A DNA stretch of 64,000 nt, from NCBI RefSeq assembly GCF_021172045.1, contig NZ_CP087164.1:2046001-2110000 (forward strand). The letters are read 5' to 3'. The stretch comes from Capillimicrobium parvum (GTDB lineage Bacteria; Actinomycetota; Thermoleophilia; Solirubrobacterales; Solirubrobacteraceae). Made by a program: the position numbers and the translations under genes. The notes below the pieces were generated by a model. It was not told where the DNA came from, searched no databases, and saw only the letters and a list, made by a program, of their open reading frames with translations. Position 1 is the first letter of the stretch, and each line of letters opens with the position of its first letter. Below are positions 47,623 through 51,050 of the stretch, in pieces.

Positions 47623-47695
47623 CCTGCGCGGCGTCGCCGGACGCTGTCCAACGCGCCCGGATGCCAACCGACCCCCACAAGAGGAGACACATCTC

Positions 47696-49042
47696 ATGGC
47701 CGTGCTCGACCGCGCCGCTCTCGAGGAGAGCCCGCTCGCCGACCTGCACACCATCGCCCGCGAACTGGGCCTCGACGGCTACCGCCGCCTGCGCAAGGCG
47801 GCGCTGATCGACGCGATCATGCAGGCGCACACCGGCGAGGAGCCGGCCGCGGCGCCGGAGCAGGAGCCGGCCGCGGCGCCGGAGCAGGAGCCGGCCGCCA
47901 AGACGGAGGCCGAACCGGCCGCCGAGCCTGAGGCCGAGGACGAGGAGGAGGAGAAGAAGCCGCGGACGAGCAGCCGCTCGTCGCGCAGCCGCTCCTCGCG
48001 CAGCCGGTCGCGCAGCCGCCGCGACGCCGACGACGGCGACGGCGCTGACGGCGCCGTGGCGGGCGCCCGCGAGAGCCGGGCGTCGACCACGAAGTCCGCA
48101 GCCGCCGCCGCTACCGCCGAGCCAGAGGCCGAGGCCGAGGCCGACAAGGTCGCCGAGGGCACGGTCGAGCTGCTCGGCAACGGCTCCGGGTTCGTCCGCG
48201 TCAGCCCGCCCGACCCGTCGGACGACGACGTCTACATCTCGGCCGCGCAGGTGCGCCGGTGCGAGCTCGTCTCCGGCGACGTCGTCACCGGGCCGCTGCG
48301 CGCGCCGCGACGCTCGGAGCGCTACCCGTCGCTGATCCGCATCGACACGATCAACGGCCGACCGGCCGACGAGGTCAGCGAGGGCACGCCGTTCGACGAG
48401 CTCCCCGCGACGTTCCCGACGCAGCGCTTCGCGCTCGGCGGCGACGACCCGACGCTGAAGGCGATCGAGTGGCTCACCCCGATCGGCCGCGGCTCGCGGG
48501 CGACGATCGTCGGCTCGGCCCGCGCCGGCAAGACCGAGGCGCTGCGCCGGCTGGCGGGTGCGCTCGCCGGCCAGGAGGGCGTCGAGGTGTCGGCCGTGCT
48601 CGCCGGGGTGCGTCCCGAGGAGATCACGGAGTGGCGCGGCGGCCCGGTCGAGCCCGTGACCGCGACGTCGTTCGCCGCGTCCCCCGACGCGCAGGCCGGC
48701 GCCATCGAGCGCGCGGTCGAGACCGCCAAGCGCATCGCCGCCCGCGGCGGCCACGCGGTCGTGCTCATCGACACGCTCGCGATGCTGCCCCCGGGCGCGG
48801 CGCGCCGGACGATGGCCGCGGCGCGCGACATCGTCGACGGCGGCTCGCTGACGCTCATCGCCACGTCCGACAAGCCGGTCGGCGGCGAGACGACGGTCAT
48901 CGCGCTCGACGAGCGGCTGACCTCGACGGGTCGCTTCCCGGCGGTCGACCTCGCCGCGAGCGGGACCCTGCGGCCGGAGCTGCTCGTCGGCGACGCGGGG
49001 GCCGACGCGATCGCCCAGGCGCGCGCGGCCGCGGTCGGCTGA
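47696..49042 (+). CDS. Rho-like protein with degenerate ATPase (short Rho paralog)
   Basis: A 448-residue protein. Residues 1-50 form a Rho_N (SAP-like) domain (PLADLHTIARELGLDGYRRLRKAALIDAI). Residues 50-150 are a low-complexity insertion with EPAAAPEQ repeats, an acidic run and RS repeats. Residues 153-222 are the Rho RNA-binding domain (GNGSGFVRVSPPDPSDDDVYISAAQVRR). The ATPase part keeps a Walker A (GSARAGKT, 273-280) and a Walker B (VVLIDT, 355-360). The segment equivalent to IDERPEEV reads LAGVRPEEI, so the catalytic Glu (E211 of E. coli) is Val305. The Q-loop and the R-loop/arginine-finger region are missing, which shortens the domain by about 60 residues. It is probably a paralog unable to act as a normal translocating helicase. 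GAGGAG precedes the ATG. Confidence 0.85.
   Translation: MAVLDRAALEESPLADLHTIARELGLDGYRRLRKAALIDAIMQAHTGEEPAAAPEQEPAAAPEQEPAAKTEAEPAAEPEAEDEEEEKKPRTSSRSSRSRSSRSRSRSRRDADDGDGADGAVAGARESRASTTKSAAAAATAEPEAEAEADKVAEGTVELLGNGSGFVRVSPPDPSDDDVYISAAQVRRCELVSGDVVTGPLRAPRRSERYPSLIRIDTINGRPADEVSEGTPFDELPATFPTQRFALGGDDPTLKAIEWLTPIGRGSRATIVGSARAGKTEALRRLAGALAGQEGVEVSAVLAGVRPEEITEWRGGPVEPVTATSFAASPDAQAGAIERAVETAKRIAARGGHAVVLIDTLAMLPPGAARRTMAAARDIVDGGSLTLIATSDKPVGGETTVIALDERLTSTGRFPAVDLAASGTLRPELLVGDAGADAIAQARAAAVG
47840..47899 (+). repeat. 24-bp tandem repeat in the Rho-like insertion
   Basis: Two and a half copies of a 24-base unit (GAGCCGGCCGCGGCGCCGGAGCAG) encode the EPAAAPEQ peptide repeats. They sit in the disordered insertion between the Rho_N and the RNA-binding domains. 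The exact identity of the copies suggests recent expansion by slippage, with no frame effect because the unit is a multiple of three. Confidence 0.85.
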
Positions 49043-49099: not shown

Positions 49100-49564
49100 T
49101 CAGCGCGGGGTGTACGCGACCCGGCCCCAGGAGGGCTCGGGGGCCAGCTCGATCGGCTCGCCGTCGCGATCGGGCTGGATGTAGGCGAACGTGTGGCGCT
49201 CGACGTCGAAGGCGACGTCGAGCTCGCCCTCCTTGACGCGCTGGTCCAACCAGGCGCTGCGGAAGACGAGGCGGCGCAGCCAGTGCACGAGGCTGCGGTC
49301 CGCCGGGCCGACGAGCTCGGGCCAGCAGTCGTTGACGTGCTCGCCGAGGGCCGACGTCGGGTCGGGGATCTCGCCGTTGACCGCGAGGTTCACCAGGTCC
49401 TCGAGCTCAGCGTCGCCGAGCCGGTCGCCGACGAAGCCGAGCTTCATCGCCGCCTGCTCGCAACGCTCCTGGAAGTCGCGTTCGTTGAAGGTGAACCGGA
49501 GCTCGCCGTATTCGAGGACGAAGTCCTCGCCCGAGTCGTAGTTGCCGCGTCGTTGCGTGTCCAT
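49100..49564 (-). CDS. Conserved-looking acidic protein of unknown function
   Basis: A 154-residue soluble protein. It starts MDTQRRGNYDSGEDFVLEYGELRFTFNERDFQERCEQAAMKLGF, has a central VNGEIPDPTSALGEHVNDCWPELVGPADRSLVHWLRRLVFRSAWLDQRVKEGELDVAFD and ends ERHTFAYIQPDRDGEPIELAPEPSWGRVAYTPR. It is not a family I recognise. The residue mix, regular helices and the clear end point make a real gene very likely. The ATG at 49564 is the most natural start, though no Shine-Dalgarno sequence is obvious. The gene is convergent with the Rho-like gene (57-base gap) and divergent from the PLP decarboxylase. Confidence 0.7.
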   Translation of the reverse strand: MDTQRRGNYDSGEDFVLEYGELRFTFNERDFQERCEQAAMKLGFVGDRLGDAELEDLVNLAVNGEIPDPTSALGEHVNDCWPELVGPADRSLVHWLRRLVFRSAWLDQRVKEGELDVAFDVERHTFAYIQPDRDGEPIELAPEPSWGRVAYTPR

Positions 49565-49670
49565 TGAGAGAGCGACGCGCCGTTGAAGGGGGGCGCGTCG
49601 TCGCGGCATTCTGACCAACTCCTGCACGGGTGCGAGGGGTGGGCGGAATCTTTCATCTACGTTTAGGCGA

Positions 49671-51050
49671 ATGGACGAGCGAGGCGAGCTGCTGGAGCGC
49701 GCGGCGGCACTGATCGCGGCGTGGGAGGGGCGGTTCGGGCCCGTCGAGCCGCACCCGGCGAGCGTCCCCGACACGGACCGGCTGGAGGCTGCGTGGGGCG
49801 CGTTCGGGGAGCGGATGGCCGATCACTATCCGTTCTTTCATCCGCGCTTCGCCGGCCAGATGCTCAAGCCGCCGCACCGGGTCGCGGCGGCCGGCTACCT
49901 CGCCGCGATGCTCGTCAACCCGAACAACCACGCGCTCGACGGCGGGCCCGGGACGACCGCGCTCGAGGTCGAGGCGGTCGACGCGCTCGCCGACATGTTC
50001 GGGCTCGCGCAGCCCCGGCTCGGCCACCTGACGTCGTCGGGAACGATCGCGAACCTCGAGGCGCTGTGGGTCGCCCGCGAGATGACGGGCGGCAAGGCCG
50101 TGGTCCACAGCGAGCTCGCGCACTACACGCACGACCGCATGTGCCGGGTGCTTGGCGTCGAGCCTCGCGCGGTGGCGGCGGACGCGCACGGCCGCCTCGA
50201 CCTCGACGCGGTCGAGGCGGCATGCCGGGGCGGCGACGTCGGCACGGTCGTCCTGACCGCGGGCACGACCGGGCTGGGCGCGATCGACCGCGTCGACGAG
50301 GCCCTCGCGCTGCGCGAGCGCTACGGCGTGCGGCTGCACGTCGACGCGGCGTACGGCGGTTTCTTCACGCTGCTGGCGCGCGGCGCGGATCCGCTCGTCG
50401 CCGGCGAGCCGTTCGCGGCGATCGCGCAGTGCGACTCGGTCGTCGTCGATCCCCACAAGCACGGGCTGCAGCCGTACGGGTGCGGCGCGGTGCTGTTCGC
50501 CGACCCGTCCGTGGCGGCGGTCTACGCGCACGAGTCGCCGTACACGTACTTCGTCCCCGCCGACCTGCACCTCGGCGAGATCAGCCTCGAGTGCTCGCGC
50601 GCGGGCGCCGCCGCGGCGGCGCTGTGGCTGACGCTGCAGGTGTTCCCGCTCCACGCCGGCGACGGGCTCGGACCCATGCTGGCGGCCTCGCGGCGGGCGG
50701 CGCTGGATCTGGCGGCGCGGCTGCGCTCGGACCCCGGCCTGACGCTCCACGTCGAGCCGGAGCTCGACATCGTCACGTACTTCCCGTCGCGTCCGACGCT
50801 GTCGGACGTCGATGCCGCCACCGAGCGGGCGCTGGCCGTCGGGATGGCCGATGGCGCCGATCCGGTGTTCCTGAGCACGATCCGCGTGGCGGCGAACGCG
50901 TTCGCGCAGCTGCACCCGGGCATCGTGCGGGATGTGGACGCGGCGCGGGTGCTGCGGTCCGTGCTGATGAAGCCGGAGCACGAGACGAACGTCGGCGACC
51001 TGCACGCGCGTCTGTCACGGCTTGCCGAAGAGGTGTCCGCAGCCGGCTGA
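49671..51050 (+). CDS. PLP-dependent group II decarboxylase
   Basis: A 459-residue fold-type I PLP enzyme. It shows FFHPRFAGQMLKPPHRVAAAGYLAAMLVNPNNHALDGGPGTTALE, typical of group II decarboxylases. LTSSGTIANLEAL holds the PLP phosphate. The ring-stacking His is in HSELAHYT (H151), the Asp is D225 (HVDAAYGG) and the Schiff-base Lys is K263 in DPHKHGLQPYG. It should decarboxylate an amino acid (aromatic, glutamate or similar) or act as a related lyase; the substrate-specifying loop cannot be read. The C-terminal EHETNVGDL segment is normal. The ATG at 49671 fits the family length. It is not in an operon with the next gene; 66 bases follow it. Confidence 0.9.
   Translation: MDERGELLERAAALIAAWEGRFGPVEPHPASVPDTDRLEAAWGAFGERMADHYPFFHPRFAGQMLKPPHRVAAAGYLAAMLVNPNNHALDGGPGTTALEVEAVDALADMFGLAQPRLGHLTSSGTIANLEALWVAREMTGGKAVVHSELAHYTHDRMCRVLGVEPRAVAADAHGRLDLDAVEAACRGGDVGTVVLTAGTTGLGAIDRVDEALALRERYGVRLHVDAAYGGFFTLLARGADPLVAGEPFAAIAQCDSVVVDPHKHGLQPYGCGAVLFADPSVAAVYAHESPYTYFVPADLHLGEISLECSRAGAAAAALWLTLQVFPLHAGDGLGPMLAASRRAALDLAARLRSDPGLTLHVEPELDIVTYFPSRPTLSDVDAATERALAVGMADGADPVFLSTIRVAANAFAQLHPGIVRDVDAARVLRSVLMKPEHETNVGDLHARLSRLAEEVSAAG

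Follow-up and report, generated by a model that had tools for sequence, protein, structure and literature searches.

The sole Rho of Capillimicrobium parvum: probable conversion of a termination motor into a motorless RNA-binding protein across a bacterial order

Rho is treated as among the most conserved of bacterial motors, and an alignment of >1200 species reported most key Rho residues to be conserved across bacteria (PMC4499133). What, then, has become of Rho in a bacterium whose rho gene lacks parts of that motor? The question is raised by a gene in a 64,000-nucleotide stretch of the Capillimicrobium parvum genome (contig NZ_CP087164.1, positions 2,046,001 to 2,110,000 of the forward strand; hereafter the window). 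A reading made from the letters without database searches (the sequence-only reading) had taken its product for a Rho paralog that might regulate or antagonise a true Rho. We consider it likely that the gene is instead orthologous to rho, with no other Rho beside it in the genome, and that its product became a motorless RNA-binding pseudo-ATPase in the ancestor of the order (Solirubrobacterales, soil bacteria). The gene and its features are as follows, in window coordinates and residues of the encoded protein.

47696..49042, + strand: rho gene, motorless form, 448 amino acids, sole Rho of the genome (open reading frame list, genome searches)
47680..47686, + strand: Shine-Dalgarno-like AGAGGAG (read directly from the sequence)
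47720..47833, + strand: Rho_N domain, residues 9-46 (Pfam PF07498, E 1e-10)
47837..48142, + strand: disordered insert rich in A, E, S and R, residues 48-149 (predicted local confidence score, pLDDT, mostly 40-62; length and sequence variable across the family)
48155..48367, + strand: Rho RNA-binding domain (OB fold, primary site), residues 154-224 (Pfam PF07497, E 6e-21)
48512..48535, + strand: Walker A motif GSARAGKT, residues 273-280, with K279 kept (alignments)
48599..48622, + strand: LAGVRPEE, residues 302-309, with Glu211 replaced by V305, D210 by G304, and the Arg valve kept as R306 (alignments)
48758..48775, + strand: Walker B motif VVLIDT, residues 355-360, with D359 invariant (alignments)
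48785..48802, + strand: site of the Q-loop deletion (alignments; in the predicted model, helix 366-374 directly after strand 353-359)
48866..48880, + strand: site of the R-loop deletion (alignments)
48881..48895, + strand: GGETT, residues 396-400 (alignments)
48959..48985, + strand: SGTLRPELL, with arginine finger R366 replaced by L425; the protein ends about 30 residues early (alignments, structure comparison)

All three domain types of Rho are present in the window protein: Rho_N (PF07498), the Rho RNA-binding domain (PF07497) and the RecA-like ATPase (PF00006, ATP-synt_ab), the last matched over residues 254-360, the front half of the domain. The best NCBIfam models for the protein are those of Rho, all far under their cut-offs: the Rho model TIGR00767 scores 180 bits against a cut-off of 509, below the equivalog threshold, and NF041509 (paralog_Rho2) scores 138 bits against 628. 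A phmmer search of the Protein Data Bank returned Rho chains only (best 3l0o, E 3e-43). Homology to Rho, which the sequence-only reading had based on the Rho_N, RNA-binding and Walker elements, is thus confirmed by Pfam and, for the Walker A Lys and Walker B Asp, by alignment.

The state of the motor was read from an alignment of E. coli Rho (reference, L083) with 29 canonical Rho proteins of the same class and 41 members of the order; family-wide counts were taken over 98 proteins of the window protein's own family (f1). Relative to E. coli and class Rho, the window protein retains K184, R212 and D265 (as K279, R306 and D359), has V305 for E211, G304 for D210 and L425 for R366, lacks R353, and shows gaps at the Q-loop (278-290, E. 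coli numbering) and the R-loop (322-327). Of the residues that a functional Rho motor needs, it thus has the Lys of Walker A and the Asp of Walker B, and the catalytic Glu211 and arginine finger R366 are both missing. These states are shared across the family: all 98 proteins have V or A at residue 305 and L, I, M or V at the arginine-finger position, K279 is Lys in 95/98, and D359 is invariant. In E. coli Rho, the substitution E211A leaves ATP binding and oligomerisation in place and abolishes hydrolysis, and E386A in Mycobacterium tuberculosis Rho behaves likewise, with ATP hydrolysis (nearly) abolished and ATP binding not blocked (PMC4499133); the Q- and R-loops are the parts of Rho that move RNA (PMC8828861). 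Because mutants of the Glu lose hydrolysis and the loops that move RNA are gone, motor action by the window protein is very unlikely. At the primary RNA site, the equivalents of F64, R66, Y80, E108 and Y110 are kept, the first four being nearly invariant.

The sequence-only reading had already noted the valine opposite the catalytic Glu and the loss of motor residues, and both observations extend to all 98 family proteins and, for the motor residues, to the order. Its account of the loops stands as to their absence, which is order-wide; its placement of the arginine finger within the R-loop does not, as this residue is R366 in the SGTRKEELL of canonical Rho, outside the R-loop, and is lost as well. 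The shortening that it put at about 60 residues is nearer 70 across the RNA-binding and ATPase part, including the last ~30 C-terminal residues. The 100-residue insertion that it described lies at residues 48-149 and is disordered; its length ranges from 46 to 169 residues across the 98 proteins, which are rich here in R, A, E, G and D, and inserts of this kind are frequent in actinobacterial Rho (PMC8828861). Separately, G396, G397, E398 and T400 of the GGETT motif adjoining the lost R-loop are invariant in 98/98 proteins of the family, and the motif is absent from the sister families.

An AlphaFold2 monomer model of the window protein (pLDDT mostly >90 outside residues 47-150) aligns with E. 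coli Rho with a Z score of 28.6 over 302 residues, up to E. coli residue 389, so the predicted fold is still that of Rho. The root-mean-square deviation of 7.8 indicates that the overall placement of the domains differs. In the model the chain runs straight across the site of the lost Q-loop, and the alignments with canonical Rho show no other pore loop in its place.

Could a second Rho supply the motor? The genome, a single contig of 5.95 Mb that is 96% complete, was searched with TIGR00767, the RNA-binding domain PF07497, the ATPase domain PF00006 and the window protein itself. None of the four query types found a second Rho; besides the rho locus they returned only P-loop relatives at 80275, 1461082 and 1463672. 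The first is a FliI/YscN-type export ATPase; the other two lie close together and, judged by this and by their PF00006 scores, are read as ATP synthase alpha and beta (AtpA/AtpD). A second copy was therefore rejected, every search having returned one Rho locus, and the term paralog does not fit a gene that is alone in its genome, sits in the orthologous gene position, and belongs to an order in which no sampled genome has a Rho above cut-off. The sequence-only reading had named as evidence against itself the lack of any other Rho together with a supply of the lost residues from other positions: the canonical rho that it proposed to look for was not found in the genome, and neither the alignments nor the predicted fold support the lost residues being supplied elsewhere.

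The same pattern holds across the order. The class sample comprised 299 genomes, in which the families given by the tool (f1-f12) follow GTDB and the order of C. parvum corresponds to f1-f4; f1 is tied to Solirubrobacteraceae, a family that NCBI assigns to Solirubrobacterales, Thermoleophilia. Rho above the cut-off occurs in 45/299 class genomes, all in f6, f8, f9 and f12; among the 103 genomes of the order there are 0 with canonical Rho, ~85 with the motorless form and ~18 that are uncertain or without a Rho-type match. Family f1 keeps the motorless gene in ~56/59 sampled genomes. Elsewhere in the class sample, f5, f7, f10 and f11 gave no Rho at all (e.g., G007 and G009, which are single contigs), so that outright loss of the protein appears to be widespread within the class. 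Outside the class, nearly all genomes of the phylum sample are canonical for Rho. Two genomes of f9 (G012 and G030, genus g51) gave no Rho match above background, and other members of g51 have canonical Rho; this absence is either a recent loss or an assembly gap.

Three families of the order (f1, f2 and f3) keep the gene, and all of their aligned members lack the Q-loop, a recognisable R-loop and R366; R353 is lost in nearly all. Both loops are deleted in all aligned f1 and f3 sequences, and in f2 the Q-loop is deleted and the R-loop unrecognisable. The ATP pocket varies: f1 keeps the Walker A Lys and has lost E211, f2 keeps E211 in 10/11 and has Arg for the Walker A Lys in 10/11, and f3 has lost both. 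The simplest reading of these sequences is that the common ancestor would first have lost the ring-pore grip on RNA and in-trans catalysis, and that decay of the ATP pocket afterwards took its own course in each family.

Gene order and phylogeny bear on descent. Upstream of canonical rho in the class lie a metallophosphoesterase gene (13/14 loci examined), an unnamed gene and a 2-phosphoglycerate-kinase-like gene (14/14 for both); in four f3 loci the latter two also precede the motorless gene, as does the metallophosphoesterase in 3/4. The downstream neighbour of the window gene (49100-49774, - strand) is convergent with rho, has no Pfam or NCBIfam match, and has its counterpart near rho in 37/40 loci of f1, f2 and f3. 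The motorless proteins of the order form one clade in the Rho tree (SH-like approximate likelihood ratio test, SH-aLRT, 100), and in the RpoB tree the order is one clade (SH-aLRT 100), whose members have either the motorless Rho or none. In an unconstrained Rho tree that took in more of the phylum, the long-branched proteins of the order are not placed beside the canonical Rho of the class; a single clade of both is not rejected by the approximately unbiased (AU) test (p 0.146). On gene order, which favours it, and the AU test, which does not reject it, the window gene is a vertically inherited ortholog of rho.

From these features we infer the cellular role of the motorless Rho. With the Q- and R-loops, which grip RNA in the ring pore, and the arginine finger that acts in trans gone in all three gene-keeping families and the primary RNA site in place, the protein would still bind C/U-rich unstructured RNA via the OB site. 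In f1, where the Walker A Lys and Walker B Asp stay and the catalytic Glu is gone, it would still bind NTP-Mg, with no ATP hydrolysis and no translocation, and hence no termination by motor action. Its most likely job would be to bind nascent or untranslated RNA, perhaps aided by the charged disordered insert, with NTP binding serving as a structural or regulatory switch at most. These bacteria would then lack classical Rho-dependent termination.

Several points weigh against this interpretation. RNA binding by the window protein is deduced from residue conservation, and the primary-site residue F62 is Ser in this protein. NTP binding cannot be general in the order, as the sister families have lost the Walker A Lys. 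The motorless Rho evolves fast. In addition, the gene is gone altogether from f4, from part of f2 and from a few genomes of f1, and such losses among relatives suggest a role that the cell can do without.

An extension of this interpretation, which we regard as rather unlikely, is that the ancient, order-wide conversion left the sole Rho as an RNA-bound transcription factor with no motor but with a continuing action on RNA polymerase; if true, nature would here have split the allosteric and RNA-binding role of Rho from its role as a motor. A rival explanation is that the protein still terminates transcription without translocating, by binding RNA polymerase and RNA and inactivating the elongation complex allosterically. 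Published work favours a model of this type for E. coli Rho, in which it is first seated on RNA polymerase and then destabilises the complex by allostery (PMC8828861); the RNA-binding and N-terminal parts are kept, and NusG is encoded in 30/30 genomes tested. However, M. tuberculosis Rho requires a hydrolysis-competent site to disrupt transcription complexes (PMC4499133), and relatives live without any Rho, which together make termination of this kind unlikely. NusG itself proved uninformative as an indicator, being present everywhere, Rho-less genomes included.

It is likewise improbable that the gene is a relic heading for loss with little function remaining. The complete losses described above, the long branches in the Rho tree and the lesions that differ by family would fit such a relic; against it stand the retention of the gene across most of f1, the f1-specific GGETT and Walker B residues that do not vary, and ratios of nonsynonymous to synonymous change (dN/dS) well below 1. 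These ratios were computed by the Nei-Gojobori method, which underestimates synonymous change in GC-rich genes, and only close pairs were used since distant pairs look saturated. For the ATPase domain, the clearest close pairs gave 0.06 (L153/L161), 0.10 (L132/L057), 0.13 (L130/L150), 0.16 (L156/L055) and 0.17 (L061/L062), and other close pairs reached 0.3-0.7; close species pairs are under purifying selection, ATPase domain included.

Far less credible is a working ATPase motor with substitute residues. Family f1 retains the Walker A Lys, Walker B Asp and Arg valve, and E398 of GGETT is newly invariant near the lost R-loop, yet the catalytic Glu, arginine finger and both loops are all gone, the Walker A Lys is itself lost in sister families, and no replacement pore loop accompanies the directly closed Q-loop gap. 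That a paralog antagonises canonical Rho, combining motor loss with RNA binding as a competitor would, has practically no standing: the gene occupies the orthologous position, and with no second Rho in the genome and none above cut-off in the order there is no true Rho to regulate or antagonise, so for this genome the idea is refuted, barring a Rho on a plasmid that the assembly lacks. Purine bias in coding sequences, an idea for a footprint of Rho loss (PMC13323073), was tried as a marker and rejected, as purine content at 4-fold sites (0.44 in canonical genomes, 0.43-0.46 in motorless or Rho-less ones) does not discriminate.

If the window protein is a motorless RNA-binding Rho, as we favour, a whole order keeps its sole copy of Rho without the motor, and living sister families show the states in between, with outright loss close by. 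A long debate, over how much of what Rho does depends on translocation and how much on binding to RNA and RNA polymerase alone, could be tested with natural proteins, and the name "transcription termination factor Rho" would probably mislead as to function in these bacteria. In the open-access library that was searched, we found no paper on a motorless Rho and none pairing Solirubrobacter or Thermoleophilia with termination factor Rho.

A degenerate Rho also occurs in family f35 of another class of the phylum, in five genomes of two genera (G331, G412 and G439-G441; L281-L285). Like the proteins of the order, it is the sole Rho match of each genome and lies below the Rho cut-off, with an altered R-loop (5/5) and, as in f2 and f3, loss of the Walker A Lys (5/5). 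The lesions are otherwise different and vary between members: the Q-loop is deleted in two, and some members keep the Q-loop and arginine finger. The Rho tree joins f35 to the proteins of the order (SH-aLRT 95), a joining that long-branch attraction may cause; because the lesion sets differ, a second, independent decay is the simpler reading, and f35 possibly represents a second independent loss of the motor.

Compared with known systems, the window protein is closest to canonical Rho (TIGR00767; E. coli Rho and M. tuberculosis Rho, 7oqh), with which it shares orthology by gene order, the domain order Rho_N, insert, OB and RecA-like ATPase, the predicted fold, primary RNA-site residues and the Walker B Asp, and from which it differs in lacking the catalytic Glu, Q-loop, R-loop, arginine finger and last ~30 residues. 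Like paralog_Rho2 (NF041509; Rho, short form) it is a divergent Rho-family protein, but it falls under the cut-off of that model and is a sole Rho, not a second copy. The non-catalytic alpha subunit of F1-ATPase, which binds nucleotide without turnover, serves as an analogy: it has a RecA-like fold of the same superfamily (VIA-align Z ~22), whereas the window protein carries Rho_N and Rho OB domains and is encoded outside any ATP synthase operon.
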